From Nodosilinea sp. LEGE 06152 (lineage in GTDB: Bacteria > Cyanobacteriota > Cyanobacteriia > Phormidesmidales > Phormidesmidaceae), in contig NZ_JADEWR010000001.1 in assembly GCF_015207525.1 (NCBI RefSeq), positions 384,597 through 448,596 of the forward strand: a stretch of DNA of 64,000 nt, given 5' to 3'. Numbering within the stretch: the stretch's first letter is position 1; each line of letters starts with the position of its first letter. The notes under the pieces are model-generated. The model had not been told where the DNA came from, did not search any database, and saw nothing but the letters and a program-made list of their open reading frames with translations. A program made the translations under genes and the position numbers. Below are positions 1,872 to 12,094 of this stretch, in pieces.

Positions 1872-4373
1872 CTAGAAATTCCGACCTGCGGTTAACACAG
1901 CGTACAAACCCCAGATCGCCATGGGGCGCATGTAGTGGCAGGCACGGTAGGTCCCCAGGGCGGTAATCGCCTCGGGGGTGCGAAATTGCAGACCGTAAGC
2001 GTAGATCTGCTGCACGACGGATTCGGCGATCGCCATGGCCTCTTCCCGCTTGCCCATCTGGGCAAGGAAGGCGGCCAGGCCAAAGTTGATGCCGATCCAC
2101 ACCTCCTGCTGGTGGGTGCTGTCGGGGTCTTCGGGGCTGCCATCGGGCAACACACCATTTGCCGCGCCGATCGCCATTTTCAGCGTCGCGGCGCTAAAGT
2201 TGCCCAGCTGTGCTCCCTCAAACTTTTGCTGAGGCGGCCGTTCCTGGCTTTGAACGACCTGGTTAAACTTCACAAAGCAGGCGTCGTAAATAGCATCGAG
2301 GGCCGACAGGGTAAATTCGTCCTCAACTAAATCGGCCAGGCCCAGGTGACGCACCATAAACTGGCCGCAGAGCTGGTCGGCCATCACCACATCCGAGCCG
2401 CTGCCCGTATCAAGGCGGTAGTAGCGGCCATTCCACAGCTTGGGGTGGTAGGCCTTGAGGCCGTTGTCGAGCCAGCGGCGGTACTGGCTGAGCAAAATTG
2501 GGGTGTTGCCGGGGGCCAGACCAGCGGCGGTGAGGATTTCTGCGATCGCGATCGCAGCCTCCATTGCCCCCAGCCACAGCCCGCCGCAGTAGGCGCTAAT
2601 GCCCTTCAGCTGCCAGTCGTCGAAGGTCTGGTCGGGAGCCCCCTCGTTTTCGGGAATGCCGTCGCCGTCCTTGTCAAACTGCTTGAGGTATTGCAGGGTA
2701 TCGACCACCGCTGGCCAGCAGTCTTTGAGAAAGGCTACATCTGTCGCCCCAGTGAACTGGTAGGCGCGGTAAACCTGGAGCACAAAGTCGCTGCCCAGGT
2801 CTTTCCACAGGTTGCAGTCTTGGTAGCTGGTGTAGTTGGTCTGCGCCCAGGGGTGCTCGTTGGGGGCACCTAGGTCGTGGGGCGTCGCACCTTTCAGCTT
2901 GCGCTTCGCCGGAGGCTGCTCTAGCCCCATGGTGACGTAGTAGCCGATGATGCGGGTGCGATCGTCCTGGGCGGGGATGGCGCGAGCAAAGGCGCGCAGC
3001 ACGGCTTTCTCTAGCTCGGGCCACAGCAGCAGGGTGGCAAAACCGCCGTAGAGGCGCACATCCAGGCTTTCGTACCAGCGGTAGTCGATGCACTCCAGCA
3101 CCGCAAACTGGCCCACGGGGTCGGCCTCGGTAGCGGCGCTCCACAGGGTGCCGCCGCTGGCCAGGTCGTACAGTTCGTTAAACAGCGCCATTTTGAACCA
3201 GTCGGGCAGGTCGAGCCGATCGAGAATCGGCTGCTGCCAGGCGGCGATCGCCTGCTGCCAGGTTTTGTATTCGGTCAGGGCATCGAAGGCGATCGCCCGC
3301 GCATTGCGGCCATCGGTGCCAAAGAAATCGGTGTAGCGGCGGTAGTTGTTCACCCCAGTGGCAAATTCTGTCACGGGCAAATCCCATGCCAGGGCAACGG
3401 GGATCTGGCGGGTTTCGCCGGGTTGCAGGGTAAAGCGGAGGGCGATCGCACAGCCGATCTGCTCGCCTTCCTCGGCCGGGGACGTATCCAGCAAATTCAT
3501 CAGCCGACCCAGTTTGGCGAACGAATCCCACAGGTCGCGCCCGTCGCCCGTCGGGTTCCAGCGCAAATCGTAGGAGACCTCTACACCGGGGTCATCCAGC
3601 GCGGCGATGCACCACTGGCCATTGCCCTCTTTGGGGTCGCCCTGCCAAGCCCCATTCATTACCAGCGCCTTAAGGCCGTCGGCGTTGATGAATTCGTTGA
3701 AGTTGCCTGCACTCTTTCCCAGGGCGGGCACGTAGTCGTAGTAGGGGCTGCCGTCGTCGCGCAGCAGCACCTCCGGAGATTTTTGCGTGTTGGTGAACCA
3801 GCCCACCATGTTTTGCCAGCTCACCATCAGGCTCAGGGTGATGGGGGTGGTGGTGGGATTATGGGCCGTCCACTCAAACGCGACGACGGGATAGCTAGCT
3901 TCTTTGTAGTTATCGGGCCAGATCGGCGAAATCTGCTCGCAGGTAATTTGGGCGCGAAACACATTCTCGTAGCGGTACCAGCTGCGCGGATACAGCGCGT
4001 GGTAGCTGCCCGTAGTGCGAGCCTTGGTCGATGCCGGGTACCACGACCACGACGACAGACTGCCATCCTCGGGTGGCTGGGTGCTGAGAGCGTAGGTCTG
4101 GGTTCTGCCGCCCCCCTGCTCCCACAAGCTAAACTGGCATCCCGGAAAGCTGCCGAACACGTGCTCGCCGCCATCTATATGCCAGAGGTTGAAGTCGCCA
4201 CTGGGCGATCGCCCTACACAGCCAGCCCCCAGCCCGCCCAGGGGTGCTCCGTGGTTGGGGCCATCGTCGAGGTTGCTGGCGTAGCGCACGATGTAGTGGT
4301 GCTCCCACGGCTGGCCGAGGGGTCGCTGCCACGCCTGGGACGGAATTTGGGGAAGAGGTAGGGTTTCAGTCAT
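1872..4373 (-). CDS. GH116 family glycosidase (non-lysosomal glucosylceramidase-like)
   Basis: An 833-residue protein resembling GBA2-type beta-glucosidases of family GH116. An N-terminal beta-sandwich (about 1-330, with GGLGAGCVGRSPSGDFNLWH near residue 46) is followed by an (alpha/alpha)6 catalytic domain. The segment 'QFAVLECIDYRWYESLDVR' around residue 427 matches the region of the family's nucleophile Glu, and 'DQTFDDW' near 581-587 carries the acid/base Asp. I did not assign the exact nucleophile because neighbouring acidic residues differ from the human enzyme. There is no signal peptide, so it probably acts in the cytosol or at the inner face of a membrane on a beta-glucoside or glucolipid; the real substrate is unknown. 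The ATG at 4371-4373 fits the family N-terminus. Confidence 0.88.
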   Translation of the reverse strand: MTETLPLPQIPSQAWQRPLGQPWEHHYIVRYASNLDDGPNHGAPLGGLGAGCVGRSPSGDFNLWHIDGGEHVFGSFPGCQFSLWEQGGGRTQTYALSTQPPEDGSLSSWSWYPASTKARTTGSYHALYPRSWYRYENVFRAQITCEQISPIWPDNYKEASYPVVAFEWTAHNPTTTPITLSLMVSWQNMVGWFTNTQKSPEVLLRDDGSPYYDYVPALGKSAGNFNEFINADGLKALVMNGAWQGDPKEGNGQWCIAALDDPGVEVSYDLRWNPTGDGRDLWDSFAKLGRLMNLLDTSPAEEGEQIGCAIALRFTLQPGETRQIPVALAWDLPVTEFATGVNNYRRYTDFFGTDGRNARAIAFDALTEYKTWQQAIAAWQQPILDRLDLPDWFKMALFNELYDLASGGTLWSAATEADPVGQFAVLECIDYRWYESLDVRLYGGFATLLLWPELEKAVLRAFARAIPAQDDRTRIIGYYVTMGLEQPPAKRKLKGATPHDLGAPNEHPWAQTNYTSYQDCNLWKDLGSDFVLQVYRAYQFTGATDVAFLKDCWPAVVDTLQYLKQFDKDGDGIPENEGAPDQTFDDWQLKGISAYCGGLWLGAMEAAIAIAEILTAAGLAPGNTPILLSQYRRWLDNGLKAYHPKLWNGRYYRLDTGSGSDVVMADQLCGQFMVRHLGLADLVEDEFTLSALDAIYDACFVKFNQVVQSQERPPQQKFEGAQLGNFSAATLKMAIGAANGVLPDGSPEDPDSTHQQEVWIGINFGLAAFLAQMGKREEAMAIAESVVQQIYAYGLQFRTPEAITALGTYRACHYMRPMAIWGLYAVLTAGRNF

Positions 4374-5210: not shown

Positions 5211-5670
5211 AGTGGAGAGTTGGCGCAATACTGGTGCTATTTGAAACCGGACTTTTATGGCGTGAATGCAGGTGTTTATCTCTGAAACCTAAGTTTCTTT
5301 GGGCTTTTTGTTGGCAAAGCGTTAATGGTCAAATAAATTTGGAATTCATTCAAAAAAACCTGCAACCTTTGATGGTGTGAGCTAAAAAGTGTGGTCACCA
5401 TACAAGTTCTCGCCGAGGCGAGTTCTGATGACTCCTCTGTCATAGGCCAATAGTGCAGGCTATGTGCTTGTTTTATATGTGTTTTCTCGCCAGATCTATG
5501 AAAGCCAACAAATACTTTTATACCCATGCTGCTGCTACAGATATCCTATGACATCACATAAAGATATCCCTCGATGTTTTCCGTGCTCACTTTGGGCAAT
5601 TGTTTAGGCGCTGTTTCTGGCCTGTCTGCGACGGGAATGCTAGAGAGACTATTCCTTCGAGGTTACCGGT
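5211..5670. other. 460-bp AT-richer spacer, no convincing gene
   Basis: This gap separates the UPF0175 gene (leftward) from the C1 peptidase gene (rightward) and must hold both promoters. It is clearly richer in A and T than the flanking genes. A short palindrome (CTCGCC-GA-GGCGAG) is visible at 5409-5422. An 83-codon open frame on the minus strand (5276-5527) has no family resemblance and no ribosome-binding site, and is not called. Confidence 0.5.
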
Positions 5671-6966
5671 ATGTTTACGCAGAACCGCAAGTTTCGTATT
5701 GGCGGTTATAAACCGGGTGAAAAGCCAGACAACGTCAAACATCACCAAATCGGTCGGTTTAGGAAGGTGAATCTGCCCCCTCGAGTAGATCTGCGTAAGC
5801 ATATGACTGAGGTAGAAGCGCAGGTTGGCAACAGCTGCGTAGCCAACGCCTTTGTAGGGGCCTACGAGTATCTGGCCAAGCGCGACCTGGGGGATGCCGC
5901 CGACGTTAGTCGCCTGTTTGTGTACTACAACGCGCGATCGCAGACCGGCAGCCACAATGAAGACGGCGGCACTCAGATGTACTGCGCGATCGAAACCCTG
6001 ATGCAGCACGGTGCCTGTTCCGAAGATCTCTGGCCCAACGACGAAGACCTGATCTTTACTGAACCCGATGCCGATGCCTATGACCACGCCGCCAACTTCA
6101 AAATCATTGAGGCCGAGACCATTGACACCGATCTAGACCTCTGGCGGCACACCCTGGCTGAGGGCTACCCCATCGCCTTTGCCCTCAATACCTTTGAGTC
6201 GTTTGACGAGGCCACCCGTAATAAAGGCCGGGTGCCTCAGCCCAAGCGCTCCGACAACGTGCGTGAAACTCACGGCTGGCACGCCATGCTGTGCGTGGGC
6301 TACTCCGATAAAGACCGCATGTTCATTGTGCGCAATTCCTGGGGGCCGGAGTGGGGCGATCGCGGCTACTGCTACGTTCCCTACGATTACGTCATCCACG
6401 ACGACTACAACGGTCACGATTCTTGGATCATCAAATCGCTCAGCGACCTAGACTTTAGCACCGAAGTTTGGGAGGACGACGAGTCATTCTTTGCCGACGA
6501 TAGCTCCCTTTTACTCTACGAGTTCTACATCCACACCGAAGACCCAGAGGGCTTTACAGAGGCACTCGAAGCCCTCTGCCTAAACTACGTTGAAAGCGAG
6601 GACGACTACTACTTCGACTACGGGTATGAAGAATCCGAAGGCAGCCCCTACCGGCTAGACATTCTTAACTTTGATCTACCCATCGATGACGCCACCGAAT
6701 TCATCGAAACCCTTGATGCTCTATGCCAGGACTACGCTGTAGATGATGCCTACAGCTTTAGCTACGGCAATGATTCTGAGGCGGAAGAAACCGAAGAAGA
6801 CTACTCCGAAGAAGAATCTGAAGCGGAGGAAGACTACTCCGAAGAAGAATTTGAAGCGGAAGAATCTGAGGAAGAAGAACCCGAAGAAGAGGATTATTCT
6901 GAGGAAGAGCTTGAGGAAGAAAACGAGGAATCTGAAGCGGAGGAAGATTACTCCGAAGAAGAATAA
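5671..6966 (+). CDS. Papain-like (C1) cysteine peptidase with acidic EDYSEEE-repeat tail
   Basis: A 431-residue protein with no signal peptide. Residues about 35-260 form a papain-like domain: oxyanion-hole Gln51 and nucleophile Cys56 in EAQVGNSCVANAF, His204 in HGWHAMLCVGY, Asn222 in RNSWGPEWGDRGY. All catalytic residues are present, so the domain looks active, but there is no obvious inhibitory propeptide. Residues about 281-366 hold two related modules, each with an E-x-L-x-ALC-x-x-Y core followed by Tyr/Phe-rich strands ending in YG. Residues 368-431 are an acidic tail: 43 of 64 are Asp or Glu, none is Lys or Arg, and EDYSEEE occurs four times, the last being the C-terminus. The role of the tail is unknown. 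A GAGG about 10 bases upstream supports the ATG at 5671. The next gene is convergent. Confidence 0.85.
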   Translation: MFTQNRKFRIGGYKPGEKPDNVKHHQIGRFRKVNLPPRVDLRKHMTEVEAQVGNSCVANAFVGAYEYLAKRDLGDAADVSRLFVYYNARSQTGSHNEDGGTQMYCAIETLMQHGACSEDLWPNDEDLIFTEPDADAYDHAANFKIIEAETIDTDLDLWRHTLAEGYPIAFALNTFESFDEATRNKGRVPQPKRSDNVRETHGWHAMLCVGYSDKDRMFIVRNSWGPEWGDRGYCYVPYDYVIHDDYNGHDSWIIKSLSDLDFSTEVWEDDESFFADDSSLLLYEFYIHTEDPEGFTEALEALCLNYVESEDDYYFDYGYEESEGSPYRLDILNFDLPIDDATEFIETLDALCQDYAVDDAYSFSYGNDSEAEETEEDYSEEESEAEEDYSEEEFEAEESEEEEPEEEDYSEEELEEENEESEAEEDYSEEE

Positions 6967-6981
6967 ATAGGGTGAGCTGCG

Positions 6982-7007
6982 GTGCGTCATTGCCTCACGT
7001 GACGCAC
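6982..7007. terminator. Stem-loop between convergent genes (GTGCGTCA hairpin)
   Basis: An 8-bp perfect stem, GTGCGTCA at 6982-6989 and TGACGCAC at 7000-7007, lies 15 bp past the C1 peptidase stop and just before the stop of the convergent Uma2 gene. It has no strong T-run. The same arms recur at 12879-12906 between another convergent pair, so it may be a dispersed palindromic repeat used as a transcription end. Confidence 0.45.
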
Positions 7008-7022
7008 TCTACAAAAATAGAA

Positions 7023-8141: not shown

Positions 8142-8275
8142 AATCTAGGCCAGCCCGAGACAGACTATCATTAAGAAAGTTGATGTAAGTAGGTTGGCAG
8201 AAGCAACGCCCCCTCGGTGCTAACCTGCATTGAGCACGCAGACAGACAGATAAGGAGACGCCAGAGCGAATGGGA
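8139..8275 (+). repeat. dnaK leader repeat, copy 2
   Basis: Second copy of the leader repeated at 7756-7880, ending in the dnaK start ATGGGA. It contains AAGGAG at 8252-8257, 12 bases before the ATG. No CIRCE operator (TTAGCACTC-N9-GAGTGCTAA) is visible in either copy, so HrcA control of the classical kind is not supported. Confidence 0.8.
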
Positions 8276-11056
8276 AAAGTAGTTGGCATCGACCTGGGCA
8301 CGACCAACTCAGTGGTCTCTGTAATGGAGGGTGGCAAGCCGGTGGTGATTGCCAACGCCGAAGGGATGCGGACTACGCCCTCGGTAGTGGCTTTTAGCAA
8401 AGAGGGCGAGCGGCTGGTGGGGCAAATGGCCCGACGGCAAGCGGTGCTGAACCCCCAGAACACCTTCTATAGCGTCAAGCGCTATATGGGTCGCCGCTAC
8501 GCTGAGCTAGACCCATCGTCTAAGCGAGTGCCCTACACCATTCGCCGCGATGATCTAGGCAACGTCAAAGTTCGCTGCCCCCGGCTCGAAAAAGACTTTG
8601 CCCCCGAAGAAATTTCGGCCATTGTGCTGCGCAAGCTGGCCGATGAGGCCAGCCGCTACCTGGGTCAGCCGGTGACCGGGGCGGTAATTACTGTACCTGC
8701 TTACTTTAATGACGCCCAGCGCCAGGCTACCCGCAATGCCGGGCGCATCGCGGGACTAGAGGTCAAGCGCATTCTCAACGAGCCCACGGCGGCAGCGCTG
8801 GCCTACGGTCTCGATCAGGCCCAGAACGAAACTATTTTGGTGTTTGACCTGGGGGGCGGCACCTTCGACGTATCGATTCTGGACGTGGGCGATGGGGTGT
8901 TTGAGGTGCGATCGACCTCAGGCGATACCCAGCTGGGGGGCACCAACTTTGACACCAAAATTGTCGACTGGCTGGCCGATGAATTTCTTGAGAAGGAAGG
9001 CATTGACCTGCGTAAAGATCGTCAGGCACTCCAGCGTCTGACCGAAGCGGCGGAAAAAGCGAAGATTGAGCTGTCTGGCGTGGCCAGCACCGAGATTAGC
9101 CTGCCCTTCATCACCGCTAGCCCCGAGGGCCCCAAGCATATTGAGACACGCTTAAGCCGATCGCAGTTCGAAGGCCTCTGCGGCGATCTGGTCAGCGCCC
9201 TGCGCGCGCCCCTCAAGCAGGCCCTCAGCGATGCGGGCCTCACCCCCGATGACATTGACGAGGTGGTGTTGGTGGGCGGCGGCAGCCGGATGCCTATGGT
9301 GCAAGATTTGGTACGCGGCCTGATTGGTCTCGAACCCAGCCAGGCGGTCAACCCAGACGAAGCTGTAGCCGTGGGTGCTGCCGTGCAGGCGGGCATCATC
9401 ACCCAGGAAGTGCAGGATATCATGCTGCTCGATGTCACGTCGCTGTCCCTGGGCCTCGAGACCATCGGCGGCGTGATGAAGAAGGTGATTCCGCGCAACA
9501 CCACCATTCCGGTGCGGCGATCGGATATTTTCTCCACTTCTGAAAATAACCAGACCTCGGTAGAGGTGCATGTGCTCCAGGGCGAGCGCGAGATGGGGGC
9601 CGACAACAAATCCCTAGGTCGTTTCAAGCTGATGGGCATTCCCCCTGCCCCGCGCGGTGTGCCTCAAGTGCTGGTGTCTTTTGATATCGACGCCAACGGC
9701 ATTCTACAAGTCTCGGCGATGGATAAGACGACCGGGCGCGAGCAGAGTCTGACGGTGCAGGGTGCCTCCAACCTAGAAGAAGGCGAAGTGCAGCGCATGA
9801 TCCGCGAGGCGGAGGAATTTGCCGAAACCGATCGCCTCCAACGCGAGCGGGTCGAAAAGCGCAACCGAGCCGAAGCGCTGACCTTCCAAGCTGAGCGACT
9901 GCTGCGGGAGGTGGCCCTCGACTTTGGTATGCAGTTTGCCCGCGATCGCCGTCGCCGCATTGAGGGGCTAGTGCAAGAGCTGCGCGACTACCTGGAGCAA
10001 AGCGACGAGCGCGGCATCGACATTGCCCAGGCTGAACTGCAAGACGAACTCTACGACCTCAACCGCGAGGCCTATCTGTACGAGGCGGACGAGGCTCCCG
10101 AAGGCGGAATTTTGGGCCAAATTGGCAGCACTCTAAAGAAAACCTTCTCCTTTGACGACGACTTAGACGCACGGCCCAACTACGGGTACCAGGGCAATGC
10201 CTCCTGGGGCAGCTGGGACGACGACTGGGACTACGACAACCGGGGTGGAGCGGGTGGGCCGCGCTACGGCAGTCCAGCCTACGATAACCGCGCCTACGGC
10301 ACGACCGGGTACAGCGGTCAGGGCTACGGGAGCCAGGGCTATAGTGACCCAGGCTATGGCAGTCAGGGCTATGGCGACAGTCGCGATATTGACCGCGGCT
10401 ACGACAGCTCTGGCTACGACCGCGCAGCGCCTTCATCGGGCAACCGCCCACCAGAACCCAACCAGCCTCCCGCTTCTGACTATGGTCGTCAGGACTACGG
10501 GCAATCGAGCTACGGTCAGCAGGGCTATAGCCAACAGGATTATGGCCGCTCAGACTATGGGCGCTCAGACTATGACCGTCAGGACTATGACCAAAACTAT
10601 GGTCGCTCAGACTACGGCCAATTCTCCAATGGGGACGCAGCGCGATCGCCCAATTCTGAGCCCTCCCGCCCCAGTTATGACGAATCGGGCTATGGTAGCT
10701 CAGGCTACAGCGATCGCTACGATCGTCCCAGTTCACCCAATTCAGGCTACGGCTCAGACTACGGTGCGGCTGATTACCGCAATGATAGTGCTGCTGACGG
10801 TCAGAGCTACGACCCGTATGGTCGCCCCAGCCAGTCTCCGGCTACCCCGCCAAACAACTGGGACGACGATCCTTGGGGTCAGTCAGCACCGCCCAGCCGC
10901 CCCCCAGAGTCACGGGCTCCGGAAAGCCGCCCCCGACCGCCAGCCGCCCCCGAGCGGGGTGTGCCCAGCGATTTTGAAGCCGAACGCGCTGCAAATCGCC
11001 GACCGGCTCCCCGCTATGATGACGACAACTGGAGCGATCGCGACGAATGGCTCTAG
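8270..11056 (+). CDS. dnaK: Hsp70 chaperone DnaK with long Tyr/Gly-rich low-complexity tail
   Basis: A 928-residue Hsp70, against about 640 for a standard DnaK. Residues 1-385 are the ATPase ([14 protein letters not shown] at the start, [14 protein letters not shown] near 192, [14 protein letters not shown] near 335). About 390-505 is the peptide-binding beta domain and about 510-605 the helical lid. From about 630 to the end the chain is disordered-looking: dozens of short SYGQ, GYGSQ, DYGRS and GYSD units with about 30 tyrosines, then a Pro-rich stretch and an acidic/Trp end ([13 protein letters not shown]). This resembles prion-like domains of FUS-type proteins. Cyanobacteria carry several DnaKs; C-terminal extension and a following dnaJ recall the DnaK1/DnaK3 types, but I cannot decide between them. 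dnaJ follows after 90 bp. Confidence 0.95.
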
Positions 11057-11146: not shown

Positions 11147-12094
11147 ATGGAGAACTTTCGGAACTACTACGACATTCTGGGGGTTTCTAGAGAAGCGACC
11201 TTTAGCGACATTAAACAGGCCTACCGCAAGCTAGCGCGGCAGTACCACCCCGACCTCAACCCCGGCGACCAGGCCGCAGAGGATCACTTCAAGCTGCTGA
11301 GCGAAGCCTACACCGTCCTCTCTGACGACGAAAAGCGGGCCCAGTATGAGAAGTTTAGCGAGTACTGGCAGCAGGAGGGCTTTAAGAAGGGCCAGGGCAA
11401 GTCGGTCGTTGGCGATATCTTCGGCGGGCGCATCTCCCTCGAAGACTTTGGCTTTGGTGAATTTCCCGACTTCAATGTTTTTGTCGACCAGCTCCTCAAC
11501 CGTCGCCCGGCCCGCCGTAGTGCTAGCGACGATGGCTATGCCGCCAACACGGCTACCTACGCACCAACTACCCCCACCGGCCGCCGCGATGCTGAGGCCG
11601 ACCTCACCGTTCCCCTAGAAAAAGCCTTCCGGGGCGGGCGCGAGCGCATTCGCCTGGAGGACGGGCGATCGCTAGAGGTCAACATGCCCGCTGGTATGGT
11701 TACCGGCCAGCGCATTCGCCTGCGGGGCCAGGGCATTGGCGGCGGCAACCTCTACTTGCGCATTCAGGTTGACCCGCACCCCTTCTACACCCTGCGGGGC
11801 AACGACGTGTACTGTCGGGTACCCATCACGCCTAGCGAGGCCGCCCTGGGCAGCACCATCGATATTCCCACCCTCGATGGCCCTGTGCGCAGCACTCTGC
11901 CTCAGGGGGCGCAAACCGGGCAAATTATTCAGCTGCCGGGGCGAGGCTATTTAGCGGGGCAAGAACGACGCGGCGATCAAATTGTGGAGCTAGAGATTGT
12001 GGTGCCGAGGGAATTGAGCGATCGCGAAAAAGCTCTCTACGAGGAACTGCGCCAGACTGAGCGGTTTCGCCCCCGCGCCGACCTGTTCAGCTAG
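11147..12094 (+). CDS. dnaJ: DnaJ-class (Hsp40) co-chaperone, type II
   Basis: A 315-residue J protein. The J domain occupies residues 1-70 with HPD at 34-36, followed by a linker (about 75-140) that is Gly/Phe-bearing at first, and then the two-lobed C-terminal peptide-binding domain (from DLTVPLEKAFRGGRERI to the end). The zinc-finger repeats CxxCxGxG are absent, so it is a CbpA/type II J protein, which stimulates the ATPase of DnaK and delivers unfolded clients. It lies 90 bp downstream of dnaK on the same strand and is probably its dedicated partner. No clear Shine-Dalgarno is seen before the ATG. Confidence 0.93.
   Translation: MENFRNYYDILGVSREATFSDIKQAYRKLARQYHPDLNPGDQAAEDHFKLLSEAYTVLSDDEKRAQYEKFSEYWQQEGFKKGQGKSVVGDIFGGRISLEDFGFGEFPDFNVFVDQLLNRRPARRSASDDGYAANTATYAPTTPTGRRDAEADLTVPLEKAFRGGRERIRLEDGRSLEVNMPAGMVTGQRIRLRGQGIGGGNLYLRIQVDPHPFYTLRGNDVYCRVPITPSEAALGSTIDIPTLDGPVRSTLPQGAQTGQIIQLPGRGYLAGQERRGDQIVELEIVVPRELSDREKALYEELRQTERFRPRADLFS

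Follow-up and report, generated by a model that had tools for sequence, protein, structure and literature searches.

Papain-type (C1A) thiol peptidases have a common fold and a Gln/Cys/His/Asn catalytic set, and the classical papains and cathepsins are secreted or lysosomal enzymes with a helical inhibitory propeptide. Such a propeptide, together with confinement in compartments, normally restrains papain enzymes. Neither is present in an obvious form in the papain-type enzymes of the bacterial cytosol, very few of which have been characterised (PMC10380794). Already known are bacterial xylellain-type C1A peptidases, viral copies of these, and fusions termed C1-TerB peptidases, the latter being named only in passing (PMC10380794). 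Xylellain of Xylella fastidiosa (PDB 3ois) stops at the end of its C1 domain, and short xylellain-type C1A peptidases end soon after it.

The window (the whole stretch of DNA analysed, 64,000 nucleotides) encodes a protein that resembles xylellain in fold and catalytic residues, with 31% identity over about 270 columns, but extends for about 170 residues beyond the C1 domain (Table 1). Neither the ferredoxin-like domain nor the acidic tail that make up this extension is found in xylellain. The C1-TerB peptidases (L018, L181, L241-L246, L248) possess a sister core and the same order of core, domain and acidic tail. The cores of L181 and L018 are about 47-50% identical to that of the window protein, and L018, which belongs to the window's genus, terminates in ...EEEYSEEEE. 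These enzymes carry a TerB-like helical domain where the window protein has the ferredoxin-like one, and neither Pfam nor a TerB model detects TerB in the window protein, which is therefore not a C1-TerB peptidase. A further set of relatives from cyanobacteria and Cytophagales (L019, L187, L190, part of L195-L213, L247, L249-L258) attaches a long repetitive acidic tail of up to about 250 residues to the core through other, poorly conserved linkers, the ferredoxin-like or TerB-like domain being missing. The open-licence papers searched contain no account of the ferredoxin-like form, nor do they treat the acidic tail as characteristic of a clade.

Table 1. Features of the C1A peptidase gene and of its product, in window coordinates.
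Feature	Position	Strand	Details
C1A peptidase gene	5671..6966	+	ATG start, 431 aa; core, ferredoxin-like domain and acidic tail
GAGG, ribosome-binding-like motif	5659..5662	+	Read off the DNA; 8 nt 5' of the ATG
Conserved basic N-terminal segment, aa 1-33 (RIGGY..G..P..K)	5671..5769	+	Alignment, charge, dN/dS
Papain-type (C1A, PF00112) catalytic core, aa 34-262	5770..6456	+	Pfam; sequence and fold match to 3ois
Gln51, oxyanion-hole residue	5821..5823	+	Invariant in alignment
Cys56, catalytic nucleophile	5836..5838	+	Invariant in alignment
His204, catalytic	6280..6282	+	Invariant in alignment
Asn222, catalytic (RNSWG)	6334..6336	+	Invariant in alignment
Acidic linker, aa 263-277	6457..6501	+	Low-confidence stretch 264-275 in structure model
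Uncatalogued domain, aa 278-366, two beta-alpha-beta half-repeats	6502..6768	+	AF2 model, half-repeat similarity, dN/dS
Disordered acidic tail (predicted), aa 368-431	6772..6963	+	67% D/E; pLDDT 26-41
EDYSEEE unit 1	6796..6816	+	Residue 376
EDYSEEE unit 2	6829..6849	+	Residue 387
EDYSEEE unit 3	6889..6909	+	Residue 407
EDYSEEE unit 4, C-terminus	6943..6963	+	Residue 425

The assignment of the core to the C1A family is straightforward. Peptidase_C1 (PF00112) scores 39.4 bits against a curated cut-off of 20.7 and is the only Pfam model to pass in a scan of the window protein, all others falling below, while an NCBIfam scan yields zero matches. Xylellain is the best PDB match both by sequence (E 3e-32) and by fold (Foldseek E 8e-20, TM 0.82 of target). 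Gln51, Cys56, His204 and Asn222, together with Trp224, are unchanged in 36 of 36 aligned relatives, in full agreement with the original prediction of an intact catalytic set; these invariant residues and the fold suggest that the core performs normal papain-type catalysis. Strong purifying selection acts on the core and on the ferredoxin-like domain, whose dN/dS values within the host genus are 0.06 and 0.10, respectively. The same genome harbours a second, distantly related C1 peptidase (G000:C23:478222-478953, minus strand) inside a 1044-codon open frame, and multidomain C1 forms of about 900-1300 codons recur across the host's family and class. Directly 3' of the stop codon, an inverted repeat (GTGCGTCA...TGACGCAC, window 6979-7009) devoid of a T-run possibly marks the transcript end.

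The N-terminal segment corresponds to the part of xylellain that precedes its catalytic domain. It bears a net charge of +4 and evolves with a dN/dS of 0.13; G12 and Y13 are invariant among aligned relatives, and G16 and P19 are conserved in at least 90% of them. The Kyte-Doolittle maxima are low (19-residue mean 0.56; 9-residue mean starting within the first 40 residues 0.14), hence a Sec/Tat signal or a transmembrane helix is absent. This lack of hydrophobic stretches agrees with the prediction of a cytosolic enzyme without a signal peptide, and neither a signal peptide nor a known inhibitory domain, either of which had been named as evidence against that prediction, turned up. The accompanying claim that there is no evident propeptide holds only in part: the Pfam scan of the window protein returns zero match to the I29 propeptide, so that it is not a classical propeptide-bearing cathepsin, but the conserved basic segment may be a propeptide-like element.

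The domain following the core had been described as two Cys/Tyr modules. An AlphaFold2 model computed with 34 relatives (pLDDT 88.5) instead predicts tandem halves of one folded domain, with elements E8-18, H21-33, E43-51, E54-66, H71-84 and E85-96. This E-H-E-E-H-E order is that of a ferredoxin-like fold. The similarity between the two half-repeats is reached in 0 of 500 shuffles. How this domain docks onto the core is modelled with low confidence (pTM 0.57). Its invariant positions are chiefly hydrophobic, with the addition of Y306, and E308, E310, D316 and Y317 are almost invariant. Conversely, Cys303 is replaced by Ile or Leu in Lacihabitans, Arcicella and others, and a metal or disulfide role based on cysteine is rejected on this ground. 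Pfam, NCBIfam and PDB-sequence profile searches with the domain gave nothing relevant, and Foldseek returned nothing significant among solved structures (PDB, best E 0.018) or viral ones (BFVD, best E 0.015), with TM mostly 0.4-0.6, including for named ferredoxin-like families such as ACT, PII/CutA and EF-1beta. The domain is thus best described as a generic fold to which no family can be assigned. A domain profile finds no proteins made of this module alone; all matches are fused to the core, save broken or cut genes. In a Cytophagales peptidase (L240, 1414-2925), the domain occurs twice in tandem after the core.

The acidic tail fits its first description: 43 of the final 64 residues are D or E, and four EDYSEEE units are present, the last one being terminal. 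None of 20,000 shuffles of the tail contains this unit more than once, and a degenerate DNA pattern for it has four matches in the 6.3 Mb genome, all of them within the tail. At the DNA level the tail is a repeat of about 33 bp; as this repeat is divergent and as many independent assemblies carry such tails, an assembly error, previously envisaged together with absence from homologs as grounds for dismissing the tail, is not the explanation. The tail, which is predicted to be disordered, can be regarded as a real element of the protein, since most close relatives by far have one too.

Comparison between genomes, as the original prediction had proposed, reveals that acidity is kept while length and motif drift. 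Among the relatives in the genome collection, tails span 0-85 residues and nearly all are acidic. A [DE]Y[ST]EEE terminus is common to most relatives within the genus. EDYSEEE/EYTEEE is the motif of the Nodosilinea-type genus, EDS or EDY repeats are found elsewhere and pure poly-Glu, 85 residues long, in Oculatella. Five Cytophagales members (L053, L055, L056, L065, L068) place a basic cap after the poly-acidic stretch, in the form of KKRR, KKKKR, KKRK or SRRKR. In Calothrix, Runella and Lacihabitans the tail is reduced to 5-7 mostly acidic residues behind intact cores. These nearly tail-less members, as well as three cyanobacterial proteins with a tail-less helical domain (see below), indicate that the tail is not essential for catalysis. 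Since EDYSEEE is local to one genus, it is disfavoured as a specific binding motif; the suggestion that the tail is a sequence-specific partner mimic becomes unlikely, and conserved charge describes it better.

The tail might also be a near-neutral product of slippage, its GAA/GAG-rich repeats expanding and contracting with little function beyond solubility. The length range inside a single subfamily, the pure poly-Glu of some strains and the tandem DNA repeats are in line with such an origin, which is nevertheless unlikely for two reasons: the tails remain acidic in two phyla and in three domain architectures although D, S, Y and T are scattered through them, and homologs without a tail all lie beyond a supported branch of the core tree. 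Alternatively, the charge may serve a low-affinity, high-capacity binder of divalent cations, calsequestrin-like in principle, making the peptidase responsive to Ca2+/Mg2+/Mn2+. D/E richness is clade-wide whatever the motif, and TerB, to which the sister domain is similar, belongs to a metal/chemical-stress context. Acidic low-complexity regions are able to coordinate Ca/Mg/Zn (PMC6821194). This cation-binding role is rendered improbable by the lack of a defined metal motif in the tail and of metal-related conserved neighbours at 38 loci.

The architecture of core plus ferredoxin-like domain, which the prediction suggested looking for in other cyanobacteria, occurs both there and in Cytophagales, in about 40 genome records with 54-89% identity. 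A core-only query (224 amino acids, without domain and tail) was used to search 380 cyanobacterial genomes. Matches of at least 46% identity (intact genes in about 60 of the 380) all lie in frames of about 356-544 codons stop-to-stop, whereas those of at most 40% belong either to short enzymes, of about 275-415 codons, or to multidomain proteins of large size, with an identity gap between the two groups. Behind this one core, three main C-terminal layouts are observed: ferredoxin-like domain plus tail, TerB-like domain plus tail, and poorly conserved linker plus long tail. Across the clade the tails measure 40-250 residues and are acidic in nearly all members, their sequence being unconserved. 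The TerB-like form is present on a Deinococcus plasmid, in one genome of the window's genus and in seven Cytophagales; Pfam TerB matches these domains under its cut-off (E 8e-5 to 3e-3). A fourth layout, in cyanobacterial L219, L220 and L221, consists of a different, all-helical-looking C-terminal domain and lacks a terminal acidic tail. By eye this domain is weakly TerB-like, and its carriers belong to the same peptidase clade. The claim that the window protein is unlike known C1 architectures therefore needs qualification: its C-terminal half is unusual, but it is not unique, being part of a broad uncurated clade that includes the C1-TerB enzymes mentioned in PMC10380794.

In a quick core tree of 119 rows, a branch with support 99 separates tailed from tail-less xylellain-type enzymes, the tail-less side comprising two cyanobacterial sequences and mostly viral-contig ones, picked for their similarity to the acidic-tailed family. 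About five architecture changes suffice on this tree, and the ferredoxin-like form is a single clade (support 100), L240 excepted. The layout, in which the acidic tail persists and the preceding domain is exchanged, marks a whole clade of bacterial peptidases, nearly all of them with C-terminal extensions. The Cytophagales members cluster together, either within or next to the cyanobacterial sequences, which implies that the gene crossed phyla; the direction of this transfer has only moderate support. A viral origin of the tailed architecture was considered and rejected: 404 IMG/VR viral contigs encode the core, those sampled stop right after it, and the sole tailed one (L101, UViG_3300044900_000004), flanked by ComM/YifB-like and phage-structural-looking genes, is probably host DNA at a provirus edge.

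No neighbouring gene is conserved across the 38 loci, which argues against an obligate operon partner. Of 28 genomes from the host genus, about 12 carry the gene, which, given its unconserved neighbours, patchy presence and variable position within the genus, is considered accessory and standalone. Its neighbour is a dnaK-type gene in the window as well as in L039 and L040, whereas L033-L037 have it close to a gene for a lepB-like signal peptidase. The window DnaK (8270-11056) carries a long low-complexity C-terminal tail rich in Tyr/Gly/Ser/Asp and is followed by a DnaJ-type gene (11147-12094); such a pair also adjoins the peptidase gene of L039, while in L040 this holds at least for the DnaK-type gene. 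In L017 (about 2190-3210; G050, Gloeomargarita-like), the peptidase gene is broken at about codon 240 by an IS630/Tc1-mariner-like element of roughly 1 kb, which has the inverted ends TAGAACCTGTTTGCAAT/ATTGCAAACAGGTTCTA and has duplicated a TA site, while the gene is intact in the related L067. Patchy presence, cross-phylum spread, changing location, the plasmid-borne Deinococcus copy and the IS-interrupted one, as well as the link of TerB to conflict systems (PMC7824862), would suit an accessory protease that uses its middle domain as a sensor and cleaves proteins of foreign origin, from phages or competitors. Such a conflict or defence role is quite unlikely, as PADLOC holds no match or model for the peptidase among known anti-phage defence proteins and defence genes are not conserved as neighbours.

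Cytosolic peptidases need restraint, and it is conceivable that the tail provides it as an intramolecular inhibitor, a C-terminal pro-region folding onto the basic N-terminal segment or the cleft and being removed or displaced for activation. The conserved +4 segment is favourable to such autoinhibition, as is a weak tendency, once phylogeny is corrected for, of tails to be more acidic where cores are less so (r -0.36; p 0.056 in a sign test), a covariation that offers no more than borderline support for tail-core contact. However, the core is itself acidic (net charge about -17), which means that tail and core do not generally attract each other, and the charges of N-terminal segment and tail display no clear covariation; a simple electrostatic clamp between these two is therefore not supported. 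With intact active sites also retained behind tails of 5-7 residues, autoinhibition has a low probability.

As charge is conserved while sequence is free, the most fitting role is the capture of cations or cationic proteins, or else a gating that depends on cations. Building on the intact active site, the conserved architecture, the purifying selection on core and domain and the clade-wide tail, we infer the sensing, the charge-based capture or gating and the class of substrate as follows. The core would cleave by the papain-type mechanism through its Gln/Cys/His/Asn set. The middle domain, ferredoxin-like here and TerB-like or missing in the sisters, would most likely sense a ligand or partner, as its position and swapping suggest; TerB is viewed as a putative ligand-sensing domain (PMC7824862). 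The disordered polyanionic tail, selected for charge with length and motif drifting, would most likely capture cations or cationic proteins or peptides next to the active site, and its occupancy may alter access to the cleft, perhaps via the basic N-terminal segment. The weak inverse relation of core and tail charge speaks for this charge-capture reading. Counting against it are the failure to identify a ligand, a substrate or a metal site, the low-confidence docking of the domain, the acidity of the core, the lack of clear charge covariation between N-terminal segment and tail, and the members that have intact cores but hardly any tail. The window protein is thus tentatively seen, at somewhat less than an even chance for the whole, as an intact, standalone, accessory and cytosolic xylellain-type (C1A) thiol endopeptidase of putative activity, with an exchangeable sensor/adaptor domain and a charge-selected polyanionic tail for capture and/or gating.

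A more general and rather doubtful proposal is that an entire cytosolic papain-type clade is regulated by a disordered polyanionic tail serving as a charge switch for cations or cationic proteins, with interchangeable sensor domains (ferredoxin-like, TerB-like) inserted between enzyme and tail. If true, this would represent a modular, propeptide-free control of papain enzymes within the cell. With this family, the repertoire of protein parts also gains a ferredoxin-like domain that had not been catalogued. The clade constitutes a natural experiment, in which one core is combined with tails of 0 to about 250 residues and with swapped middle domains; control of a protease by a charged tail is therefore testable via natural variants.
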